This document shows positions 143 to 58,524 of a stretch of 64,000 nt of DNA, in pieces. How positions within the stretch are numbered: the first letter of the stretch is position 1; every line of letters starts with the position of its first letter. Below the pieces are notes generated by a model. That model ran no database searches, was not told the origin of the DNA, and worked only from the letters and a program-made list of their open reading frames with translations. The translations under genes were made by a program, and so were the position numbers. The stretch comes from Sipunculus nudus. Its lineage: Eukaryota; Annelida; Sipuncula; Golfingiida; Sipunculidae. Where the stretch lies: assembly GCA_026874595.1 (NCBI GenBank), contig CM049307.1, positions 29,736,362-29,800,361 on the forward strand. Direction: 5' to 3'.

Positions 143-3100
143 GTATTTTATAACCATTATTTAGAATTATTTGCTGTGTGTGGACAGGTATATTCAGTGA
201 ATACACTTCTGGCCTTTTTCTCATGTAGGAATGGTTGCTGTTGTAGGTTTGATAATCCTTAATAAATGTAGTTTATTTTGTGGTGGAAGAAGTTATATAA
301 ATCTCTTTATTCTGGGAATGAAATGAAAAGTATAATAGCTTTCATTACATGTAGTCTGGTTACAACTTGCACATGTAAAGAGGTTCAATGTTACTGGAGT
401 GAGCATATAAGACTGTACCAGTATTTATATATACTGGTAACAAACAAAATCAAATTCACATTAATAGTTCATCAGATTACTACTCGTACATGAATAACTG
501 CTTACAAATCTTACAAATGCAGGCCTGACAATATCACAAATGCAGGCCTACACAAGTGCTCCAGGGGTGATTTTAGACTCTTGGTGGATTCACTCAAGTA
601 CTTGAGTTCTCCTTTCAACCTGTATGTATTCTTCCCTGCTTGATTGTAGCTTGTATGGTCATAATTCTCTTGCTTTTGGTCTCTTCTTATTTCATGCAGT
701 AGATTATATTACAATTTTAAATGGACATTGCCCCATGGAATGGACTATCATTGTGGTTGCTTGACTAATACCACTACATTACAGTCTTTATAGAGTTGAC
801 TTTAAAATCCAATGCGTTGAAAGTACACTGTGATGGTACATCCTAAGCTGTGATGGTCCAGTACAGGAGAGGTTTTTGGTCAAGACAGCATAATGTACTT
901 GACTTATATTTCAGTTATATATGTATCCTACATCATCCAAAATTCATAATATGATTTATGGAGGCTATATATTGTTATTATATCAGAAATATGTATATAC
1001 ATACATACATACATACATATTTATATATATAATACCTATACAGCATGTATGTACTTGATACAGCAGCTGCATCATTACCATAGACATGCTGGTTGTCATT
1101 TGTATTTAAAACTAAAATATGCAGGATGGTATATATACATGTGTATGTGTGTTTAGTTTTTGCTTTGTCATAATGAAGCTGGCCATATTACTGTTTATTG
1201 TATAACACTGTTTATACTATACCTGCGGTAAACAGGTTTTCCACCGCCAGCTGTGCCACCAACCACATGGCTACATCAGTTATACATTTGTGGTTCCTGT
1301 CTGACATTTAGCTCTCAGTGTACACCTTGATACAAGGAGCTTTGAGCCCACAGCACACCTGATTAGATCAGTTTTTTTTTTTTATAACAGACAGTAGATG
1401 CACACAACTTGTGATGCTGCTCTGTCTGTGACTGCTGCTGTGGGTTTGCTTTGTATCTGAGGCTGTAACAGCTCTGACGCTGTAATGCTCAGCATGTGTG
1501 ATCTTTATGTGAAAGCTGCCACAAATACCTAAGTACTGAGTCTATCATTTTATGTGGCTAAATATAAAATCATATGTATGGATCTAATTGTATCTTCACA
1601 GATGATGAAATAATATCAACAGCATGTGTTAGGTGCAAAGTAATTTATGTTCTAATAAAAACATCATGGAAAGAGAAAGTATTATAATTGTTTTGTATCA
1701 AAATCAAAAATAGATTTAAATTACATCTGATCACCAAATTATTAATAAATTTGTATTTATCCTATCAATATTTAATTGTATAACATATAATTTGATTGGA
1801 TTTGTGTGACAAGGTATTATTTATTTGTATCTATTGTTATTAAAATAATATATATATATTAGTACTATTGATATTATATATAAAAAATTATATAATGTAT
1901 ATATCATGACATTAACAAGTACATGAACTGAAAATATAAATGGTGTAACTAAAGTAAGGAAATCTCTTTTAGGCTACATGTTATTTGATATCTTACATGA
2001 ATATATTTATCTGATAATTAAGTTACTGTTATATTTGTATCTGCCATAACAAAGTTTTGCAGATATTTTTGACCGAGTTCCGCCGCCGCCGCATTCGTTT
2101 CCTAAATAGAACTCTGAGACTACTGGACAGATTTTTCCAAAACTTTACACGATTATCGGGTCACATGTGAACTGGTGCCAAAATATTTTGCGTTGACCTC
2201 TGACCTTTCCTCTCTCCAGTGTGTCAATCTGTGCGTGTGTTTTGACATGTTAATCCACATAACTTCGGACTCGTTTGACCAATCAGGAAAAAAATTTTGC
2301 ACAAATGTAGCCCTTGGATAGCTTTATAACATACATAAAAAATGGTGGCGCCACCTGCAACCATTTTTGCACAGTGTCCATCTGTTCATCTGCCTTGGGA
2401 TAAAATCACTCATATCTCTGCAGTGAATGGACTTATCCACCTGAAATTATGCATGTATATTCATCCTGGATAGCTTTCTGGATTTTTTGACAGGTGGCGC
2501 CACCTACGTTCACGTTTACGCTACAGACATCCAAGCTAATATCTGGGGAACCATCTGACCGATTGGGCCAAAATTTTGCATGTGTATAGATCTCACATAG
2601 CTCTTTATCATATGCAAAACTGGTACGGCCACCTGCAACCATTTTTGCACAGTGACTGTCTGTCTGCCGTGGGACAAAATCACTCATATCTTGACAGTGG
2701 TTTGACTTATCTGCCTAAAAGTTTGCATGTATATACATCTTGAATAGCTTTTTCGATTTCGTGGTAGGTGGCGCTACCTATTTTCACGTTCAGGCTGCAG
2801 ACATCCAAGCTAATATCTTTGGAACCGTCTGACCGATTAGGCCAAAATTTTGCATGTGTATAGATCTCACATAGCTCTTTATCATACACAAAACTGGTTG
2901 CGCCACCTGCAACCATTTTTGCACAGTGTCCGTCTGTTTGTCTCCTGTTGGATAAAATCTCGGCAGTCGTTTGACTTATCTGCCCTAAATTTGCAATTGT
3001 CTACAACTTGGATAACTTTCTGGATTTTGTGGCAGGTGGTGCCACCTTCATACACATTTCTGCTGCAGACGACCATGCCTATATGCAAAACATCCTGTCT

Positions 3101-4618
3101 ATTTCCCCAACCCACTCAATCCATGCCTCACTTTACCCATCCTACTCTGATTTTGGTGGATACACGTAGTCTCTTGTCGACTACCCGTATTCTAGTTCAT
3201 CCTGTGTTTTAATTTATGCGAGGAATATATAACAGGCACTTATTCATTATCAGGTACTTGCATGGTCTCATATATATCTCACCTGTGCAGCAGATGGTGC
3301 AGGTATTGACACAGATACCTGGCACATACCTAACAATGCAGACATATTATTATGATGATTCATTACCATGAGAATGACACGTGACACAAACTGCACCAGA
3401 TTTAAATTCAGGCAAATGTTTTTTTTCCTCTGGGATGAACTAATTAACATAGCCAATATCACTCTTATAAATATATCTATCTTGTAAACAGCAACATTGT
3501 GAATTTCATGAAACTGTTTATTGTTTGTGTGAATGATATTGTATCCTAAAATGCACCATTCTGCAAATGGTTTATGAAGGGAGTCCATGAATGTATACAA
3601 CAAACCGTGAAATTTGCAACAATAAAATGTGAGGAATCAGTATATCTTCCACAGTGATAAAATCTGTGTATGTTTCAGCACATGTTTTGGGTCACCTTGT
3701 CTGTCTATTACTTATTTGTTACATACACAGACACAGTACTCCCAGCTAGTACCTTGAAGCACAGCACCAGTGTTGCCTGACTGCTGATTACAATTAATGA
3801 ATATACTGGTATCACAGTTTTCTGGGGCTTACAGCAGTAGACCTGCTACAAGTTTCTCTGTAACTATCCTTAACTTCTGCAGACCAAGCTGCTCGCCCTT
3901 CTGTTTAGTGTGTGGCTGTCTGTTTCTTAATCCATGTGCTAGATTTCTCAAAAAGTTTGGCAGGTTACAGATTGCAGGTTACAGCCCTGGACTTAAAAAC
4001 TGAAGATCCCAGGTTTCATCCTAACATGTGTCTCAAAGGCTAGATGATGAAACTGTCAGAGATCTGTCAGAACCTCAGAGATCTGCTCCAGTATTATAAA
4101 TCCAGGTTATAATGTGCTGGGTTATATCTAGCCCCATGCATATAAAAATGAAATCCAGAAAACTATACAATAATATGTTATTCTTGATCTCTGTTTACCT
4201 TTCATCCCCATTCACTGAAGGCTATATGTAGCAGTACCCCTGGCAGGCATAATAATTTATATGGCGAGTGCCTCTGACAGGTCATGAGAAATTTCCTTAA
4301 GAAATAAAGTCATAACTTCTAGTGTACATTTTGATAAAATTGGTGGAAGTTTGTATTGCTCACTGGGCCAGTAAGAGTTGAGTAGATTTATTTAGATATA
4401 AATTTGGATGATGAATCATATTCATTTGACTTTCCCAGCAAGTAAATGCCACAATTGGTGATTGATACCAGGTTGGAGAACGAGATACCTTACTTTGAAT
4501 GAATCTGAAGACTGACATGATATAAGGACAGTTTGGTAAGACATTACAGGGAGGAGCATTGTTAGACTTGTTTTACATTTTGTTTGTGTTGATGATATTG
4601 GTTTTCTTTTTGTTTTAG
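143..4618 (+). other. Intron of the PDZ-LIM gene
   Basis: It contains a minus-strand hairpin-ended repeat at 2035-3197 (listed separately) and short CATA/TA runs near 1000-1030. The rest is AT-rich with no conserved coding signal. Short ORFs here look random. Confidence 0.75.
2035..3197 (-). mobile_element. Hairpin-ended repeat element (HINE/pearl-like), copy A
   Basis: This is a reverse-complement copy of the family at 15346 and 50078. Read on the minus strand it begins AACTAGAATACGGGTAGTCG at 3197 and ends GATACAA at 2035. Six core palindromes (GGTGGCGCCACC or variants) start at 2344, 2493, 2622, 2767, 2896 and 3035. The intervals 149, 129, 145, 129 and 139 follow the family rhythm. A DR1-type TGACCT-C-TGACCT lies at 2194-2206. 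No reading frame persists through the core, so it is non-autonomous. Confidence 0.82.
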
Positions 4619-5059: not shown

Positions 5060-6900
5060 TCAGCCAGCACTCATGTCAGTTGTGAGCTAATTGCAATTAA
5101 GACACTAAGCCCATTAACCCTATTATGTGCCCTGTGTCAGGTGCAGCACGGCCTTTGATATAGCTTTGCTGTAGGATCTTGCTGATGCAGTCCACTGAAG
5201 CTCATCAGGCTGAGAGTGATATATCCAGTAACTGAGCTGTGAATTGCTAGAATAACATTGGCCAGAAATATGAATGCGCAGATACAAGACAGGCATATGA
5301 TGCACATTTTCAGGGCTCTTGTTAGGGCCCCGCTTGACAAGCGGTGCCCTATAGTGATCACCGTGTCAGTCCGTCCATCTGTCCTTCTGTCCTTCTGTCT
5401 GTGACACTTTCTTTTGCACATGATAACTCAACAACAACATACTGCAGCTTTCCCAAATTCACAGGGATGATTGGTAACTATGAGGGCTCCAGACCTATCG
5501 AATTACTGACTTGTCTGATTTCAAATATGGCCGCCACAGCCCAATTGCTGATTTTCTTTTGCATAACTCAACAACAACATACTGCAGCTTTCCAAAATTC
5601 ACAGGGATGATTGGTACCTTTGACGGCTCCTGACCTATGGAATTACAGACTTGTCAGAATTCAAATATGGCCGCCACAGCCCAATCGCTGATTTTCCTTC
5701 ACAAGCGATAACTCAACAACAACATACTGTAGCTTTCCCAAATTCACAGGGATGATTGGTACCTATGAGGGCTCCAGACCTGTTGAATTACAGACCTGTC
5801 GGAATTCAAATATGGCCTCCACAGCCCGATCTCTGACTTTCTTTCACGTGAGATAATTCAACAACAACCTACTGCAGCTTTCCCAAATTCACAGGGATGA
5901 TTGGTACTTATAAGGGCTTCAGACCATTTGAATAACAGACCTGTCTGAATTCCAATATTGCCTCCACAGCCCGATAGCTGATTTTCTTTTGTGTGCCATA
6001 ACTCACTGACAACCTACTGCAGCCTTCCCAAAATTCACAGGGATGATTGGTACCTGTAAGGGCTCCAGACCTTTAGAATTACAGACCTGTTGGAATTTCA
6101 GTATGGCTGCCACTGCCCAATTGCTGATTTTCTTTTGTGCGTGATAACTAAACAACAACATACTTCAGCTTTTTCAAATTTACAGGGATCATTGGTCCCT
6201 ATGAGGGCTCCAGACCTATTGAATTACAGACTTGCTCAAAATCAAATATGGCTAACAGACTACATTCGGTGATTTTCTATTGCACACATTATTTCAGACA
6301 CATCTTCTTTAATCCAGAATGCTTTTTTCCCTCATGCATATTGATAAAAACCTGTTTCTGTTTGTCATGTTTTTCAAATTTAACTTTATTTTTCACCCAT
6401 ATGTAAACTAGTCAAGCAATAGCAGAAACGCCAGGCCCTCTGAGGACCAATGTCCAACCACATCTAGTTTTATACTGTTCTGTGGATAACAAAATGTTAT
6501 TTCACCCATGTTCAGATGACTTTTACTTTCACTGAAAACTGAGCCCTTGCCCACTGCGTCACTGATGGCGTTATTCTCTTATTATCACCCATGTTTACAG
6601 CTGCCCAGCGATAGCTGAAGGCATCTTTAGCAACAACTGCTTCACACACAATAGCACGGCACATGATGTTTATATGAAAATATATTGTGTAAACTTAGGA
6701 TTGTTCCAATATTCACATTTAATAATCAAGATTAATTTGAGGAGAAACTTACGAGTTAGTTCATGCTTTGGGTCTCCGGAAACCAAAGGGCCGTTACAAA
6801 GTCACACTGAAGGGGGAATTCTCTCATTGTATCAGATAGTGCCGGGCTTATCTGCTGCATATCTCTGTGCCTTAAAGTCCAAGTTTCATGCACTTTTATA
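5060..6900 (+). repeat. Dispersed repeat, copy 1 (second copy at 62500-63450)
   Basis: Segments 5060-5285 and 6540-6890 align by eye, in the same order and orientation, with 62510-62750 and 63050-63400. Shared words include GCACGGCCTTTGATA, CAGTAACTGAGC, ATGAATGCGCA, ATCACTGATGGC and GGAGAAACTTAC. Copy 1 carries an internal 145-bp tandem array that copy 2 lacks. No coding frame was found. It is probably a non-autonomous transposon. Confidence 0.65.
5405..6290 (+). repeat. Tandem array, about 145-bp unit, six copies
   Basis: The landmark ACAGGGAT recurs at 5461, 5601, 5746, 5891, 6037 and 6182 (ACAGGG), giving intervals of 140-146 bp. Each unit carries ACAACATACTGCAGCTTTCC, CAGACCT and ATGGCCGCCACAGCCC-like segments. 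Units are diverged with many point changes. Confidence 0.88.
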
Positions 6901-11134: not shown

Positions 11135-14100
11135 ACTAGATGACCAGAGGTCACGCGCTTGCCGGAAATGACACTAAGTTAGACAGATGAACGAGCAGTG
11201 TCAAAGTGAAAGAAAATAATCCATAGTTTGTGAAGAAAGAACCAATATTAACAAAGTTCTAAAGAAAATAAGATTTTGATATATTTTGATCACCTTGACC
11301 TTGACCTTTGACTTATTTGAATAATAAACATAGGACTTCCAGATATCATCACGATATATGACAAGTGTAATTTACAAAACGATTCCTTCAAAACTGTGGC
11401 CAGTAGAATGCTACATGTGAGACGCAAGAACCAGGAAGCAGGCGAAATTGAGGACAACTGACAAACAGGCAAACATACTGACCCAAGATTGAGAACAGAT
11501 GACTTAATCATGTTATGAAGAAACCTAAGAGGAAGATAATAAGCTATAATTTATGTAAATGAGGTTAATAGTTTTGGAGATATGGCCAAAAAATGACATG
11601 TTGTGCAAGTTTGAGTGCACCGCCCCCTAGCGGCCAATTCTGGAAAATGTAAAATTGGTTTCGAGATGTTAGTGTAAGACATAAGATGTAATAGTTTTAA
11701 AAGGATTCTTTCAAAACTGTGGCCTGTAGAATGCTATATGTGAGAGGCAAGAACCGGCAAGCAAGCGAATTTGAGGACAACTGAGAAACAGACGGACACA
11801 CAGACAAAGTGACTCAAGATTGAAACCAAATGAAAACACCAGGTTTTTGGAAAGACCCAGAGGAAGAAAATAAGCTATAGTTTATGTAAATGATGTTTAT
11901 AGTTTTGGAGATATGGCCAAAAAATGATATGTTGTGCAAGTTTGAGTGCACCGCCCCCTAGCGGCCAATTCTGGAAAATGAAAAATTGGTTTCGAGATAT
12001 TAGTGTAAGACATAATAATAGTTTTAAAAAGATTCTTTCAAAACTGTGTCCTGTAGAATGCTATATGTGAGACGCAAGAATCGGCAAGCAAGCGGATTTG
12101 AGGACAACTGAGAAACAGACGGACACACAGACAAAGTGACACAAGATTGAGACCAGATGACTAAACGAGTTCATGAAGAAGACTTAGAGGAAAAAAATAC
12201 AATATAGTTTTTGTAATTGAGGCTTATAATTTTGGAGATATTGCCAAAACATGATATGTTGGAGAGGTTTGCACCCAGCGCCCCCTAGCGGCCGAATTAA
12301 AAAAATGAAAAATTGATTTCGAGATAATAGTGTAGGACTTAAGATATGCCAGTTTCAAAAAGATTCCTGCAAAACTGTGGCCTCCAGGGCAAGATTACTG
12401 AAATCTCGAAATATCTCGTTTGACGAGATATTGTACGAGATATCGCGAGACTTTTAATAAAATCTTGCAGTACTTGTTAAATGCTACCTGATGCAAAAAA
12501 CTAGACCTCTCTAGCTTTAAAACTGACAAAGTTAGAAAAATAAGACCCCTTATTTCAGAATATCATGACTTTTCCCCAAAATGCGTAACCATGGTTACGG
12601 CAAATTTGAAAGAGCTGCACACCAGAAGAAAGGCCTGGGAATGGCGTTTAAAATGAGCTATGTTTGAAGAAGATACCACTAACAGTTACAAAGATATGAA
12701 GAAAAAACCGTTTTGAGAAGTTTTGATGACCTTGACCTTGGACCTATGTCGCCCAATAACAATAGGCCTCGAGGACTTTTGCTTGTCTATCAGCTGTGTA
12801 AGTTTAAAAGCAATTGCTGCAAAATAGTGGCCTGTAGAGAGTACACAGACAGACAGACAAACAAACTAGATGACCAGAGGTCACGCGCTTGCCGGAAATG
12901 ACGTAAAGTTAGTCAGATAAACGATCAATGTCAAAGTGAAGGAAAATAATCCCTAGTTTGTAAAGATAGGATCAATATTAACAAAGTTCTGAAGAAAAAA
13001 AATGTTGATATGTTTTGATCACCTTGACCTTGACCTTTGACTTATTTGAATAATAAACGTAGGGCTTCCAGATATCGTTACGACAAGTGTAAGTTACAAA
13101 GCGACTCCTGCAAAATTGTGGCCAGTAGAATACTACATGTGAGACGCAAGAACCAGGAAGCAGGCGAAATTGAGGACGACTGACAAACAGACAAACATAC
13201 TGACAAACTGACCCAAGATTGAGACCAGTTGACTTAATCATGTGATGGAGAAACCTCAGAGGAAGATAATAAGCTGTAGTTTATGTAAATGAGGTTTATA
13301 GTTTTCGAGATATGGCCAAAAAATGATATATTGTGCAAGTTTGAGTGCACCGCCCCCTAGCGGCCAATTCTGGAAAATGAAAAATCTGTTTCGAGATATT
13401 AGTGTAGGACATAAGATGTAATAGTTTTAAAAGGATTCTTTTAAAACTGTGGCCTGTAGAATGCTATATGTGAGACGCAAGAACCGGTAAGCAGGCGGAT
13501 TTGAGGACAACTGAGAAACAGACGGACACACTGACAAAGTGACTCAAGATTATGTCGAAATGACTCCACCAGAATTTTGAAAAGACTCAGAGGAAGAAAA
13601 TAAGCTATGGTTTATGTAATTGAGGCTCACAGTTTTGGAGATATTGGCAAAAAATGATATGTTGGGGAGGTTTGCATGCAGCGCCACCTAGCGGCTGCAT
13701 TCAAAAAATGGAGAAAAGATTTCGAGATAATTGTGTAGGACTTACGATATGACAGTTTCAAAAAGATTCCTGCAAAACTGTGACCTCCAGGGCAAGATTA
13801 CTGAAATTTCGAAATATCTCGTTTGACGAGATATTATACGAGATATAGCGAGACCTGTAATAAAATCTTGCAGTACTTGTTAAATGCTACCTGATGCAAA
13901 AAACTAGACCTCTCTAGCTTTAAAACTGACAAAGTTAGAAAAATAAGACCCCAGATTTTCGAATATCATGACTTTTTCCCAAAAATTCGTAACCATGGTT
14001 ACGGCCAATTTGAAAAAGCTTCACACCAGAAGAAAGGCCTTGGAATGACGATTAAAATGAGCTATGTTTGAAGAAGATACCACTAATAGTAACAAAGATA

Positions 14101-15242: not shown

Positions 15243-15345
15243 GACCCTGTGTACACATGTATCATAATCCACTACGAAACTGAATCAACACTATCTGATC
15301 TTAATACCCTGTGTAAACATGTATCAGAACCCACTACAATACTGA
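15243..15345 (+). repeat. Left remnant of the 62-bp minisatellite
   Basis: About 1.7 units of the same array that resumes at 20269. It ends ...CAATACTGA exactly where the hairpin-ended element begins. Confidence 0.88.
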
Positions 15346-18300
15346 ACTAGAATACGGGTAGTCGACAAGCGACTACGTGTATCCGCCTAAATCAGAGTGG
15401 AATGGGTGAAGTTAGGCATTGATTGAGTGGCAAGGGGAAATAGAGTGAAGTGTTGCATATTAGCATGGATGTCTGCAGCCAAATGGTGTATGTAGGTTGC
15501 GCCACCTACCACAAAATCCAGAAAGCCGTCCAAGTTGTATACATATGCAAAATTTGAGCAGATAAGTCAAACCACTACATGTTTATGAGTGATTTTACCC
15601 CGTGGCAGACAAACTGATGGACGCTGTGCAAAAATGGATGAAGGTGGCGCCACCAGTTTTGCCTATGATAAAGAGCTATGTGAGAACTATACACATGCAA
15701 AACTTTGGCCCAATTGGTCAAACGGTTCCCAAGATATGAGCTTGGATGTCTGCTGCATAAACTAGAATGCAGGTGGCGCCACCTGTCATAAAATCAAGAG
15801 AGCTGTCGGGGATGTATAAACCTGCAAAATTTTAGGCAGATATGTCAAACCACTGCCGAGATATGAGTGATTTTATCCCATGGCAGACAAACAGGTAGGA
15901 GCTGTGCAAAAATGGCTGCAGGTGGCGCCACCAGTTTTGCGTATGATAAAGAGCTATGTGAGATCTATACACATGCAAAATTTTGGCCCAATCAGTCAAA
16001 CGGTTCCCGAGATATGAGCTTGGATGTCTGCAGCATAAACGTGAATGTAGGTGGCGCCACCTGTCATAAAATCAGAAAAGCTATCCAGGATGTATACGCA
16101 TGCCGAATTTCAGGTGAATTAGTCAAATCACTGCAGAGATGTGAGTGATTTTAACCCAAGGCAGACGAACAGATGGACACTGTGCAAACATGGTTGCAGG
16201 TGGCGCCACCATTTTTAGCGAACCTGTGAGCTTAAGCGATGGTGTGGCGTTGTCTGTCGTCCGTCGGCCGTTGTCCGTCGTCTGTACGTTAACCCATACT
16301 ATCTTGAAAATGGCAAGAGGTAGCATCACAAATTTTATGCAAAAAATTAGTCATCTAAAAAACTATATCGGATTTTGCTTGTTTTTTGGCTAACTGCATT
16401 TTTTTAGATTTTATAGGGAAAAAGCTAAAAAAGCTTTAAAAATCTTCTTCTCCAAAACTGTTCAGCCAAATTGTCCAATATTTCACAGAAATGATTCCTG
16501 GAATAATCTTTCTCAAATTTGTTTGAATGGTTTAAGTTCGGTGATTTTTTGCCGAGTTGCAGGAAGTTGAACTTAGTCATTTGTCCATAAAAGCATACTA
16601 AAATTACAATCTCAGAAAAGGCTGGAGTTATCATCACCAAATTTTATGCCAGTGTTGTTCACATGAGACATATCTGAAATTGAGGTATTGGTGGGGCCAC
16701 CTGCATCAGCCTTTTTTGTACGGGGGTCATCAGTGCCCGTATCATACTGACGGCTACAAAATACTCTGAAACCATATGGCCAAATAGTTTAATATCGCAC
16801 AGAAATGATCCTAGGGTAGTGCTTTCTGAAATTTGTTCAAATGGTCCAAGTTCATTGACTTTTGGCTGAGTTATGGGAAGCTGAATTTAGTCATATGCTG
16901 TAACAGCCTATTTTAGCTCAGTGGCTACAAAGATCTTCTCCTCAAAAACCACTGGGCCAAATTCTTAAATCTCACATATTAATTATCCTTAGATGTTGAT
17001 AATTCAAGTTTGTTCAAATGGTTTTGGTTCAGTGATTTTTGGCTGAGTTATGGGAAGCTTAACTTAGCCATTTTGCTGTATTTTCCCATATGAGTTATAA
17101 ACCTGTAAAATTTTTTTTGACTGACCCTACTGAGGCCAATTTGATTAGTATTTTACAAGAATAATCCCCTGAATAATTCTTATAATAATTGTCTTTTATG
17201 GTTCCAAAGAATGAATTTTGGCTGAATTATAAAGGTTCAATTGAGTCATTTTACCATATATGTTAGCTGTGTGAAGCAGATACACAGATAGATCTAGATA
17301 CATCTAGACTGGCACCAGTTTATCAGCATTTATTACATCATGCCTCTAGACATTTAGATTTCAGGTTATCTATGGTTAATATTGACAAGAATGTTTTTTA
17401 AAAGCTTTTAAAAAATGTAGATTTATGATTTTTAGATATTCCTCATGCCAGGCAATGTTTACAATCACAGCTATACAGCTCTCTGTGGGTATATAAAGAC
17501 GGCTGTACATGGATTATAAATAATTGGTATCCATAGTCAAATTAATTCAAGATTTTGCCATCAGTGAGATGTATCTGTATTACAATTTTGCATTCAATAT
17601 GCATCTGTATTAATTTTTAGTGAACCTGTGAACTTATGCGATGGTGTGGCGGTGTTTGTCTTCAGTACGTCTACCCATACTATTTTGAAAAAGATTGGAG
17701 CTAGCATCATGAAATTTAATGCAAAAAATTAGCCATCTAAAAATTTTCTTAAATTTTATAGAGAAAAAGCTAAAAAAAACCTTTAAAAATCTTCTCCTCT
17801 GAAACACTGAAGCCAAATTGTTCAATATTTCACAGAAATAATCTTATATACCATCTCCCACAATTTCGTTCAGGAAGTTTAACTTAGTCATCTGTCCAAA
17901 AAAGCATACTAAAATGACAGTCTCAGAAACAGCCAGAGCTATCATCACCAAATTTTTGCCAGTGTTGGTCACATGAGTCATATATGAAATTCAGGTATTG
18001 GTGGCACCACCTGAATTGACCTATTTTTGTACGGGGGTCATTGGTCATCTGTACATTAATCCATAATTTCTCAGGAATAGCAGGAGCTACCATTCCCAGA
18101 TTTTATGCAATAATCTGTCACATATCAAATTTTGTGGGATTCAGCTTATTTTTTTGCTATCTGCATTTACTTAGATTTTATAAGGAAAAAGCTGACAATG
18201 TCTTAAAAGTCGTCTTCTTGTAGACGGTCCAGCCAAATTGTTAAATATTTTACATAAATGATCCCAGAGGCAAGCCCTCTCAAGTTTGTTCAAATGGTTT

Positions 18301-20268
18301 GCATTTGATGAATTTTAGTGGAGTTACACAAATTTGAACAGACATTTGGCCAAGTAAGCATACTGACATAGTACTCTCAGAAATGATAGAAGCTAGCATT
18401 ACCAGGTATTGTGCAAATGTTGGTCACATGACTCATATTTGAAGTTGTAGATTTAGTGGTGCCACCTACATTGACCTGTTTTTTATGGGCAAAAAACCTA
18501 ATAATTTTAGCCTCTTTCAGCTCAATGATGAAACTGTCAAGTTGAATTGTTCAATTTTTCAAAAGAATTACCCTAGGACATGGTTCTTTCAATCATATCA
18601 GAATATACTGAGTTTGTTGATTTTTGGTTGAGTTGTGAAAAGCTTAAGTTGGTCTTATGGCCATTATTATGTCTTTTTCAAACTGAGGACTGCAATAGTG
18701 TTCTTCTACAAAATTATTATTTCAGTTATATCTTCTGTAACATTGCACAATAATTATTCTTAGATGGCCTTTGTTCAAGTTTACTAGAATGATTTTTGTC
18801 AGAACTATTGGACCTTTAACAATGAAAGTACTGCATCTTTTATTATTCTAGATATTTTGATAAAAAGTTTATGAATATGTAGGCTTGAATAAAGAAATTT
18901 TAACCAAAGTCTTTCAGTATGTGTAAACAGATATACCAACAGGCCAAGATTGAATCTGTATCTTTAAATAGGATGAGAAACTGCCAACTGTTTCAGATTT
19001 GGGAACAGATCATTCCAAAGTTCCAGAGTTCATTCAGTGCAGCCAGATATAGGTCAAGAGTTCAATAAGTGCAGCCAAGCACATGGCATGTGATCACCTC
19101 ATGGGTGACATGTGAACACCTCATGGGCACCATGTGATCACTTCATGGGTGTCAAGCCCCTAAGGGCAGGGCCCCTGCATGAGCTTATGCAATGGTGTGG
19201 CTACTATTTCAGATTTGGCAACAGGCTAGAGGTCAGTCTGGGTCTATTTATAGCTTTGGCAGACTGCCAACTGTATCAGATTAGGCAACAGGTCAAGAGT
19301 TCACTCAGTGCAGCCAGGTATGGGTCAGGAGTTTACTCAGTGCAGTAGCTGCATTCTATTTATAGCTTTGGCAGACTGCCAACTGTGTCAGATTATACAA
19401 CAGGTCAAGAGTTCACTCAGTGCAGCCAGGTACAGGTCAAAAGTTCACTCAGTCTAGCCAGGTGCAGGTCATGAGTTCACTCAGTGCAGTAGTCTGAGCA
19501 AGCAACTTGTCACAGTTCACTCGGGGCAACAGCCTTTCTCACCTAAGCCTGGTCAGCCCCATGCATCAGACTCAAGGTAAGTTTGATGTATTGGCCTAAT
19601 ATTTTGACCTGTCTATGTGTCTTTGATGGCTTTCTCGCTCACAAGACAGGTGTTGCCACCTACCATGACCTTTGCACACGTTTTTCTCAGGAGGTGTTTG
19701 ATATATCAGTCTGAAATTGGGCTTATGTATATATCTCTGATAACTCCGTTGTATACAAGACTGGTGGTGCCAGCTACAATCTTTTTAGTGTTGTGTGCAC
19801 CTATGCCAGAATTTCAGCAGTGATGTTTGTGTAATTGTTTCTTATTCAAAATGTTTAGTACTTGCATAGTTCATATACATGAAAAGTAATGGTCCAGCAT
19901 TGAAGCATTATACCTGGTGTATTTCCCAATGCACAGGTTCGCATTAGGCCTGTAGGCCTTGTTTGTGTATGTTATAAGGCTCTCCAAGGGCTACATTTGT
20001 GCAAAACAATTTTCCTGATCCGTCAAACGGTTCCCGAGATATGTGGGTTTATGTGTGGAAACAGACGCACAAACGGACGCAGAGCACAGAGGAAAGGTCA
20101 GAGGTCAAAACAAAATCGGGGCGCAGCAGTTCACATGTGACCCGAACATAATCACGGGTTTCGTAAAATTCCGCCCAGCGGTTACGGAGGAGTTCTCCGG
20201 ACACCTATGCGGCGGCGGCGGTGGGCTGAAAACATAGTATCCGCAAAACTCTGTTTTGGCGGATACAA
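15346..20268 (+). mobile_element. Hairpin-ended repeat element, copy B (with nested 3.7-kb insertion)
   Basis: The left end has a hairpin: GTAGTCG (15358-15364), loop ACAAG, CGACTAC (15370-15376), plus outer ATAC/GTAT pairing. The right end has GTATCCGCAAAAC (20237-20249), loop TCT, and GTTTTGGCGGATAC (20253-20266) with one bulged base. Subterminal GTATCCGCC is inverted between the ends. The core palindromes start at 15495, 15643, 15772, 15921, 16050 and 16199 (intervals 148, 129, 149, 129, 149). A perfect DR1, AGGTCAGAGGTCA, lies at 20095-20107. The last palindrome is followed by a foreign 3.7-kb element. Confidence 0.85.
16218..19942 (+). mobile_element. 3.7-kb non-coding element with GCGAACCTGTG inverted ends, nested in copy B
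   Basis: The left end GCGAACCTGTG (16218-16228) is exactly inverted as CACAGGTTCGC (19932-19942). Comparison with 50765 and 55219, where the core palindrome is followed directly by ATTTTxTxTGTATGTTATAAAGCT, shows it is an insertion. A second internal element start (AGTGAACCTGTGAACTTATG) at 17619 marks a partial internal duplication. A 60-90-bp direct repeat region (CAACAGGTCAAGAGTTCACT) lies at 18960-19500. No long ORF is present. A reverse copy is at 32040-35752. Confidence 0.75.
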
Positions 20269-21726
20269 TCAGTACTATCAGATCTTAATACCCTGTGTAA
20301 ACATGTATCACAATCCACTATTATACTGAATCAACACTATCAGATCTTAATACCCTGTGTAAACATGTATCAGAATCCACTACAATACTGAATCAACACT
20401 ATCACATCTTAATACCCTGTGTTAACATGTATCACAATCCTCTACGATATTGAAGCAATACTATCAGATCTAAATACCCTGTGTAAACATGTATCACAAT
20501 CCACTACGATACTGAAGCAATACTATCAGATCTTAATACCCTGTGTAAACATATCAGAATCCACTACGATACTGAAACAAGACTATCACATCTTAATACC
20601 CTGTGTTAACATGTATCACAATCCTCTACGATACTGAATCAAAACTATCGGATCTAAATACCCTGTGTAAACATGTATCACAATCCACTACGATACTGAA
20701 GCAATACTATCAGATCTAAATACCCTGTGTAAACATGTATCAGAATCCACTACGATACTGAAACAACACTATCACATCTTAATACCCTGTGTTAACATGT
20801 ATCACAATCCTCTACGATACTGAATCAACACTATCAGATCTAAATACCCTGTGTAAACATGTATCACAATCCACTACAATACTGAAACAACACTATCACA
20901 TGTTAATACCCTGTGTTAACATGTATTACAATCCTCTACGATACTGAATCAACACTATCAGATCTAAATACCCTGTGTTAACATGTATCACAATCCACTA
21001 CGATACTGAAGCAATACTATCAGATCTTAATACCCTGTGTAAACATATATCAGAATCCACTACAATACTGAAACAACACTATCACATGTTAATACCCTGT
21101 GTTAACATGTATCACAGTCCACTACGATACTGAATTAACACTATCAGATCTAAATACCCTGTGTAAACATGTATTACAATCCACTACGATACTGAAGCAA
21201 TACTATCAGATCTTAATACCCTGTGTAAACATGTATCACAATCCACATCGATACTGAAACAACACTATCACATCTTAATACCCTGTGTAAACATGTATCA
21301 CAATCCACTATTATACTGAATCAATACTATCAGATCCTAATACCCTGTGTAAACATGTATCAGAATCCACTTCAATACTGAATCAACACTATCAGATCTT
21401 AATAACCTATGTAAACATGTATCAGAATCCACTACGATACTAAATCAACACCCTCAGATCTTAATACCCTGTGTAAACATGTATCAGAATCCACTACGAT
21501 ACTGAATCAACACCACCAGGTCTTAATACCCTGTGTAAACATGTATCATAATCCACTATGATACTGAATCAACACTACCAGATCTTAATACCCAGTGAAC
21601 ACATATATCAGAAATCAATACAATACTGAAGCAATACTATCAGATCTTAATACCCTGTGAAGTTGTGAACACATATATCAGAATCAACTACAATACTGAA
21701 ACAACACTATCAGATCTTAATACCCA
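20269..21726 (+). repeat. 62-bp minisatellite, about 23 units
   Basis: The landmark ATACCCTGTGT starts at 20288, 20350, 20412 and 20474, and continues to about 21720. Units read ACTATCAGATCTTAATACCC, then TGTGTAAACATGTATCACAA, then a link TCCACTACGATACTGAATCA. A variant with GTTAACATG plus CCTCTACG appears at every third unit in the first part (20412, 20596, 20782), forming a trimeric higher-order repeat. The last three units are degenerate. Confidence 0.95.
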
Positions 21727-32017: not shown

Positions 32018-32039
32018 ACCTGTGAAGATATATATAATG

Positions 32040-35000
32040 AAGACCTGTGCAATGGGATATACATCAAGTATTATGCTTCCAGGCTGGACCATTACTTTTC
32101 AAGTACATGTGTGACATGTATATGTACAGTGTAAGTGCTAAACATTTTGCAAGTATAAGCACATATTACACAAACGTCACTCCTGAAATACTGGTATGGA
32201 TGTACACAACACAAAATGATTGAAAGTGGCGCAACCAGTCTTATGCACGAGAAAACCAGTTCAGATGTATGGACATATAACATTTCAGGCAGATGCTTCA
32301 AACCACTCTTGAACTATGTGCAAAGATGCATGAACCCCCCCCCCCCCCCCAAAAAAAAAAAAAAAAAAAAAAAAAACTGCAGGTGGCGCCTACAACAAAA
32401 CTATCCGAGATGTATGGACATGTATAATTTCAGGCTGATATGTCAAATCACTCCTGAGAAATAAGCAGGGGCATACACTGTGCAAAAATTATTGCAGGTG
32501 GTGCCACCAGCCTTGTATACGACAAAGCTATCCGAAATGTAAACATATGCCCAATTTCAGGCTGATATATATGAAAGGACATACACTGTGCAAAAGATTA
32601 TTGTAGGCAGCGTCACCAGTCTTGTATACAATGAACCTACCCAATATGTATAGATATGCACAATTTCAGACTGATATATATAATCCCTCCCGAGAAATAA
32701 GCAAGGACATACACTGTGCAAAAATTATTGTTGGTAGCGACACCATTCTTGTGTACAAGAAAGCCATCAATAATGCATGGACATGCCAAATTTCAGACTG
32801 ATGTATCAACCCTCTCTTGAGTCAGGTGCATTGAGCTTACCAAGCTCAGCTGAGGCTGACAGTTGCCCTAAGTCAAGCGAAGCTAATTGCCAGCTGCAGC
32901 TACTGCATCGAGTGAACTCTTGACCTGCATGTACCTGGTTGCACTGAGTGAACGCTTGACCTATTGCAAAATCTGATATATTGTTGGCGGTCTGCCAAAG
33001 CGATAAACAGATCCAGACTGAAACTTGCCTGTTGGGAATCTGAAATAGTTTGCAGTCTGCCAAGCTATTTATAGATACAGACAAAATTTTGGCATGTTGC
33101 CAAATCAGTTTATGCATACTAAAATAAAAGACTGGCTTTTTTTTTTCAAGCTGTATATTCATAAGATTTTTATATCAAAATGTCTAGAATAATAACAGAT
33201 GCCTATTGAAAGCAAAATCAGAATACAGATATTTTATAATCATGGATTTATCTTACACAGAAGTTGGGTATGGACACTAATTATGGGGCCTGTACAGCTC
33301 TGCTTATATACAAAAAAAAGCTCAGTTTGTTAAATCTACTGGTTTTGTTTACCAAAGTATCTCACAGTCCTTTCATTGTAAATCGTCCAATAATTCTACC
33401 AAAATCATTTAAGTAAACTTGAACAAAGGCCACCTAAGAATCTTTTTTGTGCAATGTTACAGAAGTTTAAACAACAGTTTTGCAGAAAACTATTACGGCC
33501 CTCAGTTTGAAACAGGCTTACTAATGGCCACAATACCAACTTCAGCTATCTATCAGTATGACCCTACCAAAATCCATGAACCCAATCTCTTCTTCTACAA
33601 TTGAGAGAACCCTCCCCTAGGATAATTCTTGTGAAAAATTAAACCATTAAGCTTGACTTTTTCATCATAAAACATTAAATTACGAGTTTTTTTTTTGCCC
33701 ATAAATAAAAACAGGTCGATGTAGGTGGTGCCACAAAAACCTCAATTTCATATATGAGTCATGTGACCAACATTTGCACAAAACTTGGTGATGCTAGCTC
33801 TTGTCGTTTCTGAGATTTTTGCGTGAGTATGCCAAATGACTAAGTTCAAATTCCTGTAACTCTGCCAAAATTCATCGTACCCAAACCATTTGAACAAACT
33901 CAAGAGAGCTCATTTCTGTGATCATTTTCTGTGAAATAATACAGTTTGGTTAAATGATTTAAGGGAAGAAGAGCTTCAAAGGTTTTCAAGCTTTTCCCCC
34001 GTTAAATATAAGTTGATGCAGGAGGCGCCACAAAAAGCTCAATCCCACAACATTTGACATGTGACAGATCTTTGTATAAAATTTTGGGATGTTAGCTCCT
34101 GCTATTCCTGAGAAATTATAGGTTTATGTACTCATGACCGATGACCCCCGTACAAAAAGGCAAATGCATGTGGCGCCACCAATACCTCTATTTCCAATAT
34201 GACTCGAGTGACCAACATTTGCCTAATTTTTGGTGAGGATACCATCAGTCATTTCTGAGATTGTAATTATAGTATGCTTTTCTTGTTATAATGAATAATT
34301 TCAGCTTCCTGTTACTCAGCCAAAAATCATCAAACTGGAACTATTTAAATAAACTATAGAGAGATTCTTTCTGGGATTATTTCTGTGAAATATTGAACAA
34401 TTGGCTGAACGGTTTAAGGGAAGAAGATTTTTAAAGTTGTTGTAGCCTTTTCCATATAAAATGCAATGGCGCCAAAAATGCTCAATTCGATAAAGTATGA
34501 CATGTGACTGAATCTTCAAAAATAAATTGCGCTGCTGGCTCCGACAATATTTGAGATAGATGGGTTAACGTACGGACGACGTGTCACCAGAGAAATGTGA
34601 CTTAGGTATTGTATTGTGTTCTGGTAGGGGATTAAACCAGCTGATCGTTTTGATAATTTATTGTACATTAATATGGAGTATCATGTTTAGATATTAGCAT
34701 GATATCGTTGGTTAAAGAACATTCGTGTCTCATTTGATGTTAATTTCAAAGCAGTTTAGTGGTTAGAGAGCACACGTGACTCGTATGTTGTTAATTCGGT
34801 ACAGTTGTAATTCCGCTCAAGCCGTCTTTTTTTGGCGGTCTCTATGGTAACGAGTATTTGTAGTAGATTTCAAAGGAAGTGCACCTGTGTAAGTTAGATT
34901 TTCTCAGGGTCTGTCACTATAGAATAAGGAGTGAGAAGGACATTTTCGGGAGAAGTGCCCGTTTAGCGTACCGGTATGGTGATATCTACAGCAGTCCGGG

Positions 35001-47655: not shown

Positions 47656-48312
47656 CTATAGGCCTGTCTGGTACTGTGTATACTCTCCAGATTGCCTTTT
47701 TTCATCCAGGAAGGAGTCTCCATTTTCTTTGCCCTCAGCTTCCAAAAGGTCATCTTTAGAGAATTTCAGAGCAGGATTAATTTTGCCGCTGTTAGCATCA
47801 TTTTTGGCAGTGTTGATGACTGACATTTCACCAAGATCAGAAGCCGGGTCTTTCAGAGTTATTGCCTCATCTGGTATGTTAACAATACACATGAAAACAT
47901 CCCATTCCTTTCTCAGTTTCCCGCTCTCGAACAAATACCGGATTGGGTAGGACACTCCTAGTATCATCGAGAAACTGATCAACATGCAGAGTGTCTTAAA
48001 AGGGAAGAGCTGCACATTAGTAACTTCATCGTAACCGGGGTATTTTATCACTGCCTTAAGCTTAATTAGCTCTTCTCCACCACATAGACGGAAAAGTAGT
48101 CCAATTACATATCCAGCTAAAGATCCATATGTGTTTGTTCCTGAAAGGTACACCACAGACACTAGCTGCGGGAAGAGAATGACATACACAAGATCTGCAC
48201 ACAGGTACCATAATCCGTAGATGGTTTCAATTGTAATTCCCATCACTGTGGCCAATGCTCCAACTCCAAATATGGAAACACGCATTACCCAGATAATTTC
48301 TCTTTCCGAAGC
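47656..48312 (-). CDS. SLC5A7: CHT1 last coding exon, TM10-TM13 and cytoplasmic tail
   Basis: 218 codons plus TAG at 47658-47656. It starts [19 protein letters not shown] and contains the signatures VYGLWYL-like (IYGLWYL), [39 protein letters not shown] and RYLFESG. The tail of about 80 residues is acidic and polar, with DDLLEAEG, a possible dileucine-type endocytic signal. In mammals a tail dileucine-like motif controls CHT1 internalisation, but the tail sequence here is not alignable to it by eye. Acceptor CTTTTTCAG, entry phase 0. Confidence 0.98.
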
Positions 48313-49677
48313 CTGAAAAAGTCACAAGAGGTTAATTAAATGGGTAACCAAATGTATTTTTTTACACATGCAAAACATCATGCCATAAATAATTTGAAAT
48401 CTTTCCTTTTTCAACAACCTTTTAAATATATGATATAGTACAATATCTATAGTCTGTTTACCAACTAGACCACTTCTATATTACTCATATCAACCCACAA
48501 AATAAATTCAGTGAAACCCCGGGTTGCAGACACCCCTCTAGGGTGGAGACCCCGCGTAACGTCTTTGGTATAACAAATCATTTTTTACTATATTAAGAGC
48601 CCCTCGAGGGCAGACACCCTGTTTTCAGGACAACAGACACTTTAGTCCATCCAACAGTTAAATTCAGACCAGCTAAGGAACACACCCCCTTGGCTGCTGG
48701 CAGGACAAAAACTTGATAAATGAAATTATGTTCTGCTTCTAGTAAACTTTCCAACTTATAATTTTTTTCATTTTAACAGGTAGCTGTGGTGACAAAACAA
48801 CACACATTTTTCACTCCATTTACCTTAAAGTTTGTAATTTGTTACCATAACGTGACGGAATGAGTCCCAAATAAGCGGAGCTGGATTTTAGACTCAGGCT
48901 TTCGATTAAAGGTGATCAAAATGGTTTATTATTCACTTGTTTGCTGACTGATATGGTCATCCATTGTAAAAATTATGAACTCATAATTTTTTTTTAGTTG
49001 TTCATGTGCCAGCTGTGTTAAAATGGAGACTTTACAGTATGGCCCTAACATGACCCAATTACCCATAGTGTAACATACACTTCATGGGTATAAGTCACTT
49101 GGACCCATCACAGGGGACTTAGAATATACCTTTAATCCATTTGTCTTTTTTTTAAACTTTGACATCGTGAAGAATAGTAATATAACCAAGATGAAGAAAT
49201 GATGATGATACATGTTTTAGTTAAGAAAGTTCTGCCACAAAATTAATTTTGGGAAGTATATTCTTCATCAAATAAAGACATTAATGACCCAATCAAAATT
49301 TCATGCAACAGTTTGAAAAAAAAAAAAAATTAATGCACCATCTGGCCCCCACAGGGGCTGCTGGGCCCAAACCCCTCTGGGGTGGAGACCCCACTACAAC
49401 AGACAAATCCTCCTATCCCGTGGCTGTCCAATACAGAGGGGTTTCACTGAATTCATACAAATGTAAGATTTCTTTGATAAATAATCATAAGTATAACCTT
49501 CAGAAATCAACTTATAAAATTATTTAGAGTATAAAAGGAAAATCATTCTGTTAATAACCTAAAAGTAGCTGTTATACTTTATAAAGATTATGAGGAAGCC
49601 ATTTTAATTGTTGCATTTTATGGGAATATTAACTATGTCAATCCACATGTCAAGAAGTCGAGAGAATTCCACCATAC
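48313..49677 (-). other. CHT1 intron containing a TIR element
   Basis: 1365 bp, mostly occupied by the element at 48509-49449. Confidence 0.85.
48509..49449. mobile_element. TIR element, 941 bp, ends CAGTGAAACCCC
   Basis: CAGTGAAACCCC at 48509 is inverted as GGGGTTTCACTG ending at 49449. AATT flanks both sides (48505-48508 and 49450-49453). TCTAGGGTGGAGACCCC near the left end recurs in direct orientation near the right end. It resembles non-autonomous Tc1/mariner-pogo-type elements with CAGT termini. There is no transposase frame. Confidence 0.6.
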
Positions 49678-49910
49678 CTTTTGTCTGAATATAAGTTTGT
49701 AGACATTGCGGGCAAACATGGAGCTGGCTGAGAGCACAGAGGAATCAGCTGATGACATCACAGCTGCTGATACAGCCCCAAGCCCGATGAATGACACAGC
49801 ATTAGGGCACAGGTACTGCAGAACCATAGGAAGTATCAGTTTCTGATCATCTGCAGGGATAGGTATTGTTTTGTTGTCACCCATTGGACCATACCCAGTG
49901 GCAGTCCAGT
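49678..49910 (-). CDS. SLC5A7: CHT1 exon, loop and TM9 with the sodium-site serines
   Basis: Reads [10 protein letters not shown], a short acidic loop, [12 protein letters not shown] and [18 protein letters not shown], followed by [18 protein letters not shown]. The [11 protein letters not shown] segment aligns with the SGLT region whose serines form the Na2 sodium site (family knowledge). The first codon is completed across the junction as AAC, giving Asn-Trp-Thr. Acceptor CATCACAG, donor AAG|GTATGG, phases 1 and 0. Confidence 0.97.
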
Positions 49911-52631
49911 CTGTGATGTAAAGGAAAAACATATGCATCACATGTCCTTCTTGATGAATCAAACATCTCAGGTCAAGGTTTTGTTAAAATCAAATGATCA
50001 CTGCTGATCACTCTTGCCACTTTGGATTTCGAAAACTTCAAAATAATCAAATTTTCTCTTTTATGGACACTATATTAAACTAGAATACAGGTAGTCGACA
50101 AGCCACTATGTGTATCCGCTAAAAACCAGAGTGGGACGGGTGAAGTGAGGCATAGATTAAATGGCAATGGGAAATAGAGAGAGGTGAGTTGCATATTAGC
50201 ATGGATGTCTGCAGCCAAAATGTGTATGTAGGTGGTGCCACCTGCCACAAAATCCAGAAAGTTATCCAAGTTGTATACAATTGTAAAATTTTAGGCAGGT
50301 AAGTAAAACCAGTCCTGAGATATAAGCCTGGATGTCTGCAGCCTGAAGGTGAAAGTATATGGTGCCACCTGCCACAAAATCGAGAAAGCTATCTCAGATG
50401 TATATACATGCAAAATTTTAGGCAGATAAGTCAAACAGACAAACAGACAGTCACTGTGCCAAAATTGTTGCAGGTGGTATCACCAGTTTTGTGTATGATA
50501 AAGAGCTATGTGAGAGCTATACACATGCAAAAGTTTGGGAGGATACGTCAAACCAGTCCTGAGATATAAGCCTGGATGTCTGCAGCCTGAACGTGAATGT
50601 AGGTGGCGCCACCTGTCATAAAATCAAGAAAGCTATCCAGAATGAGAACACATATGCAAATTTTCAGGTGGATAAGTCTATTCACTGCAGAGATAGGAGT
50701 GATTTTATCCCAAGGCAGATGAACAGATGGACACTGTGCAAAAATGGTTGCAGGTGGTGCCACCATTTTCTATGTATGTTATAAAGCTATCAAAGGGCTA
50801 CATTTGTGCAAAATTTTTTTCCTGACTGGCCAAACCAGTCTGAAGATATGTGGGTTAATGTGTGAAAACAGACGAAAAGATGGACGCACTGGAGAGAGGA
50901 TAGGTCAGAGGTCAACGCAAAATATCTGACACCAGTTCCCAAGTGACCTGATAATTGTGCAAAGTTTCAGAAAAATCTGTCCAGTGGTCTCAGAGTTCTA
51001 TTCCAGAAACAACATGGCAGCAGCGGAACCTGGTCAAAAACATAGTATCCGCAAAACTTTGTTTGGGCCGATACAATGATATACCTCTTAATTTCTCTGA
51101 TAAAGATCCTCAATATGCAGGCAGTGATTGCATAAATTATGATCAAACGTTTGTTTTAACTAGGTACCAATGGGTCGCAACGCTCACCTGAATTTGTCTA
51201 TAAAGATAGGTTTTCAAAAATGGGTCCAGTGATCAGTATGAAGCTGACTCGTCTGCCCAAACTGAAGTTATCATCAATAAACTAATTATTTGAATGGATG
51301 GATCCTGTGACCTTGACCTTTGACCTAGTGACCCAAAAAAGGTTTTTCCTTGATGTCTAAAAAAACCAAGACACAGTGACCCAGTTTCAGGTTTGGCAGG
51401 AGAACTTAGGAACACCTAACTCAATGAATTTTGAATTTGATGTTCTAACAGTTTCTTAATGTAATAATCATTACAAGAATGCAACTGGTTAATTCTTTTG
51501 ACCGATTTTAAACACACCCATTCAGCTGTCTAGAATCACTCTTTATTAGTAAACTGGAAATTACTCAAAGTACTCATTTGCCAATGTTTGGTGTAGACAT
51601 GTAATTTTTTAAAAAATATAACTTTGTGTTCCTCTTCCAAAATTCAAGGCTTCTTATCATTCTTGGGCCAAAGAATTACCAAACCAGGTAATGCCTTTGG
51701 CAAAATTTGGTTTGTCAAATTTTGGCATTTTGTTGATCAAATATACTAAATATGAGGAAATTTGTCTTGAAGATATGGCTGAGCCCTGTCCTGCAATACA
51801 TCTCTGTTATTGTAGCGCTAGCGGGATCTGGTGTTTGTGGGGAATTAGTAAAACACAAACGACAATAATAAGTCCTTTAGTGGTAGAGACTTTGGTGTAT
51901 TCAGTCAACACATGTATACAGCATGCTGGTCAGTTGATGTGTCCAGCTCAGTGGTCAATTCAAATCTGCTGCTATCCAGACATCTGGCAGCATCATCATA
52001 CCTTGACCCTGATGCTACCAGGGTGACACTGATGGGCTGCTCATTAACACTGATAGGATCATGCCAAGATACATACATTTACATTCTATTACAGCCATTA
52101 ACTTAAATCTGTGTTTCTTCATGTTACTGACACATTATACTAAAACTACTTTATCAAATTAACTGAAACTTTACATCCACATGAAATGTGACCCAAAGAT
52201 TATACATGTAGAAAATGGTATCAAACTAACATATAGCTATTACTTACTGTATAGGTTATCACAAAGTTTAGGAATTCAACAGACACAGAAAATCCACTTA
52301 AATCATAATTGCAGTACCACTAAATAAGACACAAGGATGAAAACAGAGTTAATTAAAGTTATAGGAATCTAGCAGTGTTCTAAATATGAAGCTAATATGT
52401 ATAATACTGAGTGATTTATAGAAGTATTATGGTCCAACAAACACATGTACTGCTGGTGACTGTCCAGTTGACTGACCACATGGTGTGAAACACTAGGGAA
52501 CAGACAGGCCCACAGCATGGTTCTTCACAAGTATAAAGTTAATAGTACAACTTGCAGAACATACACAATAAATAAGCATCACTTAATTGAGCTCTACCAC
52601 ACTTTTATGACACATTTTGTATACAACTTAC
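49911..52631 (-). other. CHT1 intron with hairpin-ended element
   Basis: 2721 bp. It contains the complete hairpin-ended element at 50078-51076, then a separate repeat fragment from about 51170 (TGGGTCGCAACGCTCACCTG) carrying a perfect TGACCTTTGACCT. The rest is plain. Confidence 0.85.
50078..51076 (+). mobile_element. Hairpin-ended repeat element, copy C (most compact copy)
   Basis: A 1.0-kb copy with both ends: AACTAGAATACAGGTAGTCG on the left, GTATCCGCAAAACTTTGTTT then GGGCCGATACAA on the right. Core palindrome starts are 50231, 50359, 50473, 50602 and 50753. A perfect DR1, AGGTCAGAGGTCA, lies at 50902-50914. It is opposite in strand to the host gene. This is the best reference copy for the family. 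Confidence 0.87.
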
Positions 52632-52761
52632 TTGTTGACTTTGCAATGGCTCCAATGAGCACTGCTGGAATTGCCATGACGATGCATCCAAAGGCAGCAA
52701 CAAAAGACAATAACTGTGCCCTCTGAGCAGTTTTAGATGACAACACACGCTGGAAGTAAAC
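52632..52761 (-). CDS. SLC5A7: CHT1 exon, VYFQRVLSS segment and TM8
   Basis: Reads [20 protein letters not shown], then [13 protein letters not shown] and [18 protein letters not shown] and IPAxLIGAI are SLC5A7 signatures. Acceptor TTCTTCACAG, donor ACAA|GTAAGT, phases 0 and 1. It was recovered by splice logic, since its frame is not open far beyond the exon. Confidence 0.95.
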
Positions 52762-54615: not shown

Positions 54616-54689
54616 TAGGACATTTTAAAACTAGGATGTATCAGTCAGGATTTTTCAGATATGTTCTTTTTGCCTGGGAGGATTAATGG

Positions 54690-58500: not shown

Positions 58501-58524
58501 GACTTATAGTCAGCTGAGCTAAAA

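Follow-up and report, generated by a model that had tools for sequence, protein, structure and literature searches.

A probable non-autonomous Helentron family of Sipunculus nudus: a core palindrome common to dissimilar repeats, and neighboring copies that mostly point the same way

A 64,000-nt stretch of Sipunculus nudus DNA (termed here "the window") contains several copies of a hairpin-ended repeat family, F1, which is very probably a family of non-autonomous Helentrons (Helentron-associated elements, HINEs) in an animal genome, i.e. a new family of an already known kind of element. On chromosome C1, nearby copies of F1 and of two further families, F2 and F3, are mostly oriented the same way over about 50 kb, and up to about 1 Mb at the end of C1. 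In addition, several repeat families that are dissimilar to each other, including two or three HINEs as judged by their ends, carry the 12-letter palindrome GGTGGCGCCACC in their cores, and within F1 it is better conserved than its neighborhood. The coherence of neighboring copies may record the direction of host DNA replication or transcription.

Ends, target site and identity of F1

Three F1 copies in the window have both ends, one of them being split by a nested element; two more are partial. BLAST unites as one family the segments 2035-3199, 15343-16216 together with 19959-20268, 50078-51077, 54976-55462 and 63757-64000, with identities of about 74-87% among the longer pieces. The first-pass annotation had listed five copies or fragments sharing the hairpins GTAGTCG/CGACTAC and GTATCCGC..GCGGATAC, and these are indeed present, except that the fragment 54976-55462 lacks both ends and the last copy runs past the window. 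Its "left" and "right" hairpins are the 3' and 5' end, respectively, in the transposon sense, in which each end also carries a subterminal inverted repeat (subTIR). The core of copy B had been taken to extend to 19.9 kb, while the segment at approximately 16216-19961 turned out to be a nested element of another family. Genome-wide, the ends recur, contrary to the refuting outcome named in the first-pass annotation (copies without common ends): the exact 43-base F1 3' end is found 2,199 times (1,075 on the plus and 1,124 on the minus strand) and its reversed control not at all. The F1 features of the window are:

2035-3195, plus strand: copy A, both ends (BLAST and ends)
15347-20268, minus strand: copy B (HINE), 3' end CTAG at 15347, 5' end TTGTATCCGCC at 20268, interrupted by the nested F2
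15347-15376, minus strand: 3' terminal hairpin of copy B, GTAGTCG-CTTGT-CGACTAC (7-bp stem, fold z -2.2), then CCGTATTCTAG and host TT
15379-15387, minus strand: 3' subTIR of copy B, GGCGGATAC, longer in other copies (TTTTGGCGGATACA)
15457-16216, minus strand: core array of copy B, 278-bp dimer (149-bp and 129-bp monomers with a palindrome in each; period from Tandem Repeats Finder, TRF)
15643-16210, no strand: five exact GGTGGCGCCACC sites at 15643, 15772, 15921, 16050 and 16199, with a one-mismatch sixth at 15495
16216-19961, plus strand: nested F2 element, approximate ends, 5' TTAGCGAACCTGTGAGC.., 3' CACAGGTTCGC plus palindrome AGGCCTGTAGGCCT plus TTG
20237-20268, minus strand: 5' end of copy B, fold GTATCCGC CAAAAC AGA GTTTTG CGGATAC (z -8.6), (CCG)n just inside
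20267-21725, no strand: 62-bp tandem array giving the empty site of copy B, units also left of copy B
50080-51076, minus strand: copy C, both ends (BLAST and ends)
54976-55462, minus strand: copy D, fragment with core and part of the 5' module (BLAST)
63759-64000, minus strand: copy E, cut by the window end, with its 5' end in the adjacent sequence (L033:4273-4304)

Read on the other strand, F1 begins with TT-GTATCCGCCAAAAC and a hairpin followed by (CCG)n, continues with the dimeric 129/149-bp core, and closes with GGCGGATAC, the hairpin GTAGTCG/CGACTAC and CTAG|TT. In the transposon sense the 5' start reads TTGTATCCGCCAAAAC-AGA-GTTTTGCGGATAC, whose arms fold together (z -8.6), and is followed by the (CCG)n stretch and then the core; the 3' finish reads ..TTTTGGCGGATACAC-GTAGTCG-CTTGT-CGACTAC-CCGTATTCTAG, with host TT next to it. 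Our survey, which tolerated up to 7 or 8 mismatches, took in 23 3' ends, of which 21 came from 20 fetched loci and 2 from the window, and 18 5' ends, of which 16 came from 16 loci and 2 from the window. CTAG is terminal in 18 of the 23 3' ends and TT follows in 21, while 16 of the 18 5' ends start with TTG, preceded by a variable base.

The consulted sections of two papers (PMC7492417, PMC4067079) give as marks of HINEs a 5' subTIR, an inner repeat complementary to it, a microsatellite in the 5' module, a central satellite-like array, a 3' subTIR with a palindrome, and insertion at TT without target duplication. F1 carries these marks, in agreement with the HINE assignment proposed in the first-pass annotation. 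The subTIR, 11-15 bp long in HINEs, is TGTATCCGCCAAAA at the 5' end of F1 and recurs inverted as TTTTGGCGGATACA before the 3' palindrome in several copies, the complementary inner repeat is GCGGATAC with the (CCG)n microsatellite just inside, the stem-loop GTAGTCG-CTTGT-CGACTAC lies near the 3' end, and tandem repeats occupy the center. Insertion at TT without target-site duplication is seen at a single empty site, provided by the 62-bp array: its undisturbed unit is CTGAATCA (plus strand) with one TT, and the site filled by copy B is bordered on either side by AA (TT on the opposite strand). Because TT flanks the filled site twice and the empty site once, the ambiguity of the insertion amounts to the TT pair only. 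The identification as HINE thus follows from the conserved ends, which carry subTIRs and hairpins, from insertion at TT that leaves no duplication at the one empty site, from the dimeric core array and from the thousands of copies. It is weakened by the absence of any Rep-helicase frame noticed by eye among the open reading frames (ORFs) of the window, of which no family search was made.

Two other classes of elements were considered and rejected. A transposon with terminal inverted repeats or a miniature inverted-repeat element is ruled out by the asymmetric ends and by the observed empty site, where no target sequence other than TT is duplicated. A canonical Helitron (5' TC, 3' CTRR, A|T target, hairpin about 11 nt from the 3' end) agrees with F1 only in the 3' CTAG and the hairpin, since F1 has a 5' TT(G), a varying preceding base and subTIRs. 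A Rep-helicase acting in trans would copy F1 by rolling-circle transposition, with the 5' and 3' hairpins as its start and stop signals.

Among the described elements, as presented in the sections cited, Cg_HINE of Crassostrea gigas (PMC7492417) resembles F1 in its 5' module (a subTIR with its complementary inner repeat, plus a microsatellite), in its central satellite-like repeats (138-181 bp in Cg_HINE), in a 3' subTIR that precedes a palindrome, in TT insertion without duplication, and in having its repeats in one orientation within the element. F1 differs in that its core is a 129/149 dimer with a 12-bp palindrome and in that its microsatellite is CCG instead of GTCY, a GTC type being present in F2 and F3; two conserved segments are common to some of its clusters, and those sections report no palindrome across unrelated clusters (PMC7492417). 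HINE-Mo and DINE-1 have, like F1, subTIRs 2-4 nt from the 5' end, a palindrome near the 3' end, and two or more T on either side of an insertion that leaves the target unchanged, but differ in species, sequence and core (PMC4067079). The proto-Helentron of Phytophthora infestans shares the 5' TT and 3' CTAG, but inserts at A|T and has typical Helitron ends, in contrast to the subTIRs and the variable base before TT in F1 (PMC4067079). DTC84/pearl elements, likened here by description only, are also modular with satellite-like repeats, and a palindrome lies close to the repeat junction of DTC84 (PMC5139131).

A palindrome common to dissimilar core arrays

Two related monomers, 149 and 129 bp long, make up the 278-bp unit of F1, and the palindrome sits at both of their joints. 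The alternating 129- and 149-bp steps described in the first-pass annotation hold: the five exact sites of copy B are spaced by 129, 149, 129 and 149 bp, and TRF reports the 278-bp period at 15457-16216. They reflect a dimer of related monomers, which is a common form of satellite; what is unusual is the sharing of the palindrome among dissimilar families. CTAG follows the palindrome in a few monomers and is lacking in most of those listed, and we therefore rejected the idea that it acts as a spare terminator.

Sampled sites place the palindrome in families F1-F7. F2, nested in copy B, has its own subTIR (GCGAACCTGTG / CACAGGTTCGC), the palindrome AGGCCTGTAGGCCT and a GTC-type microsatellite. 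F3 has a 336-bp unit and a HINE-like 5' module, its HINE status being known here from the 5' end only, and F4-F7 are known here from the surroundings of the palindrome only. Two F4 copies contain a piece similar to the reverse transcriptase of long interspersed nuclear elements (LINEs; L010:2688-2795 and L021:7234-7344). The window also contains:

32035-34581, minus strand: degraded F2 copy with palindrome variants (BLAST)
54702-54897: additional F2 piece
58521-59696, minus strand: F2 copy, 5' part, exact palindrome at 59212 (BLAST)
Adjoining that F2 copy at 58521: F3-like HINE 5' end (TTTTTAGCTCAGCTGAC..)

With at most one mismatch the palindrome has 22 matches in the window (10 exact), compared to a mean of 0.01 in 100 shuffles, and in the 1.43-Gb genome it occurs exactly 111,729 times versus 14 for the reversed-letter control. 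Samples of 10 kb showed no exact site in five stretches inside chromosomes and nine in one near the right end of C1. We grouped by their flanks the 115 exact sites with enough flanking sequence, taken from 24 loci of C1:0.117-0.946 Mb (chosen for holding exact sites), from further samples and from the window, with L033 left out, and obtained six groups of 79, 18, 10, 5, 2 and 1 sites, the group of two coming from one locus.

The palindrome could be a relic of common descent of the cores, without function, and we regard this as possible but doubtful. Such descent would predict the likeness between the monomers of F1 and F5 (74% over 78 bp) and the 35-bp match at 86% between F1 and F2 around the palindrome; the best matches of F1 to F3, F4 and F6, on the other hand, cover 17-18 bp at the palindrome only (two of the nine probes, the F1 end modules, stood outside this comparison). 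Mutable CpG positions are also kept more inside the palindrome than elsewhere. In 37 segments not chosen for the palindrome (23 from the window, 10 from L035 and 4 from L042), compared with a consensus derived from chosen copies, the F1 palindrome matches at 348 of 370 non-CpG positions and 64 of 74 CpG positions, versus 3250/3758 and 157/248 elsewhere. A ranking of 12-mers weighs against special conservation: the palindrome shares first place at one of the two monomer joints and misses it at the second.

The palindrome would be a protein-binding, replication or recombination module repeatedly selected among mobile copies, and its persistence in dissimilar mobile satellites suggests one host or transposon protein acting on all of them. 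A 12-bp palindrome kept in this way brings to mind the CENP-B box. It also includes AGGTGGCGC, which we take to be similar to the CTCF core motif, so that a zinc-finger site is conceivable. In one open literature library, we found no report of the shared palindrome in titles or abstract starts, and a text search with GTGGCGCCAC gave no transposon paper by title.

Orientation of neighboring copies

Genome-wide, F1, F2 and F3 are evenly balanced between the strands. To describe their local orientation we used maps that all come from C1, comprising the first 100 of 2,199 listed places for F1 (to 39.9 Mb), the first 100 of 7,792 for F2 (all exact, to 24.0 Mb), and the first 100 of 9,000 for F3, collapsed to 52 arrays (to 11.7 Mb).

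F2 alone forms 26 orientation runs versus 50.3 expected (z -4.95). Pairs of F2 agree in 17 of 17 cases within 25 kb, in 37 of 46 at 25-100 kb, 27 of 39 at 100-200 kb and 69 of 116 at 200-400 kb, and in about half beyond that; in the first ~0.9 Mb of listed places on C1 all 14 point in the same direction. The agreement crosses families. The F2 copy nearest to F1 agrees with it in 21/24 cases within 50 kb (18/21 past 1.1 Mb), the F2 copy nearest to an F3 array in 24/27 (20/23 past 1.1 Mb; mean of circular shifts 0.49, none of 2,000 as high), and the F1 copy nearest to F3 in 12/15. When cross-family pairs are pooled below 11.7 Mb (28 F1, 56 F2 and 52 F3; the pairs are not fully independent), the agreement falls with distance: 14/15 below 10 kb, 22/24 between 10 and 25 kb, 22/28 between 25 and 50 kb, then 38/63 to 100 kb, 67/108 to 200 kb and 102/208 to 400 kb. 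Past 1.1 Mb the first three classes give 12/13, 17/19 and 16/22.

At the left end of C1 the coherence extends to about 1 Mb. The 24 loci of C1:0.117-0.946 Mb (186.7 kb) show 7,669 same-strand and 24 opposite inter-locus repeat matches (pairs counted both ways), and all their F1 (20 copies in 10 flank groups) and F2 (13 copies in 13 flank groups) are canonical minus. About 71% of these 186.7 kb (C1:117500-946400, L009-L032) consists of same-strand repeats common to the loci. Elsewhere, segments with versus against the sense of C1-left number 17/5 in the window, 10/0 in L033, 2/0 at C1:55 Mb, 0/13 at C1:110.0 Mb, 0/4 at C3:0.5 Mb, 1/0 at C3:97.4 Mb, 1/3 at C2:60 Mb and 0/1 at C5:10 Mb; four other genome samples contain no oriented segments. 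Orientation directed by the telomere was rejected, as C1-left is plus (in the sense used by the first-pass annotation) and C1-right minus, but C3-left is also minus.

Copying of whole blocks by segmental or tandem duplication, with the same direction by descent, could produce such a pattern, and the 7,669 to 24 ratio would fit it, as would the F1 3' flank groups of 6, 4 and 3 copies (read as F1 inside F3 and F1 inside F2) and the long flanks shared by some F1 copies, read as composites copied as units. We nevertheless consider it very unlikely as the general cause: the 13 F2 copies at the C1 end lie in 13 different 3' contexts, cross-family pairs join different families, and close F2 neighbors elsewhere have different flanks. 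Among 20 F2 3' flanks from nine groups of close neighbors none are alike within a group, and the two similar pairs lie far apart; such neighbors are therefore separate insertions.

Separate insertions could still be aligned by their target, if elements inserting at TT have a TT-rich transposon strand, so that nested insertions take the direction of the host copy and coherence spreads. In the four copies measured, the canonical strand does carry more TT than AA (118:50 and 125:78 in F1, 461:352 in F2, 219:200 in F3), and 9 of the 20 F2 flanks match the C1-left repeat library, all nine in the direction of the inserted copy. However, the overall TT:AA ratio on the canonical strand of the all-minus region is only 55:45 (22057 vs 17727), too weak for 23/23 contexts, and neighbors whose flanks match no library repeat agree too (e.g., 9792155/9810140 and 7034761/7085734), which makes this explanation unlikely.

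Transcription would align copies within a gene, either by insertion into transcribed single-stranded DNA or by selection against one orientation. It has perhaps some three chances in ten: a correlation length of tens of kb would suit genes as well, the window copies at 50-59 kb are canonical minus, which is the gene sense, among minus-strand exon-like ORFs (47.6-61 kb), and LINE pieces within one neighborhood agree as well. The ~0.9 Mb of listed F2 places that run one way on C1 (14/14) is, by contrast, long for one transcription unit.

Insertion polarity that follows the replication fork, by analogy to bacterial single-strand transposons, is our preferred reading, although a tentative one. In its favor, different families agree with each other, separate insertions do so as well, the distance over which they agree resembles that of a replicon, and those bacterial elements show a counterpart. 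In the bacterial IS200/IS605 family, single-strand transposons, orientation follows the direction of replication, and the cited sections of the same paper report no such bias for Helitrons (PMC5371812). In titles and abstract starts of one open literature library we likewise found no report of orientation domains of Helitrons. To our knowledge, the choice of target and strand by eukaryotic rolling-circle transposons is not settled; the agreement of three families over tens of kb offers a direct and cheap test of coupling to replication or transcription, for which any HINE-rich assembled genome could serve.

Several observations speak against fork coupling and against the coherence itself. The signal comes from F2 and from pairs across families, all of them mapped on C1: taken by itself, F1 has no significant orientation runs (z -0.59; 7/11 pairs agree within 50 kb), nor do F3 arrays alone (z -0.83; 6/10 within 50 kb). 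With the limit set at 100 kb, the nearest F2 agrees with F1 in 26/39 cases (p 0.053) and the nearest F1 with F3 in 15/25, and the single cross-family pair less than 1 kb apart is discordant. On C15, three LINE places that lie within 131 kb of each other share the plus orientation, as do four LINE pieces in the C1-left loci (two more pieces there lie in F4 copies, and the other matches of one query are the F2 3' end). As nearby LINE pieces agree too, the effect may not be specific to Helentrons. The two plain 20-base LINE pieces used have 15 and 12 places in the genome, one of these on C1, too few for a control; that no non-Helentron control was adequate is the chief weakness of the orientation reading.

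The broader proposition, i.e. that Helentron integration is coupled to fork polarity, that the directions of HINEs, in their thousands, are a fossil map of forks (replicons) in an animal genome, and that the palindrome is a common functional site (possibly for a zinc-finger or replication protein) at more than 100,000 places, is doubtful as a whole, and the C15 LINE places and the discordant pair weigh slightly further against it.

Other repeats and open reading frames of the window

Exon-like ORFs on the minus strand occupy window positions 47656-61077, with F1 copies C and D and an F2 copy among them; by eye we presume them to resemble a sodium-coupled choline transporter. Arrays with periods of about 327-331 bp, built of one related unit, lie at 11376-12383 and 13092-13786. 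A 145-bp array, also detected in multiples (291 and 436), lies at 5422-6252 and runs in the direction opposite to most repeats of the window.

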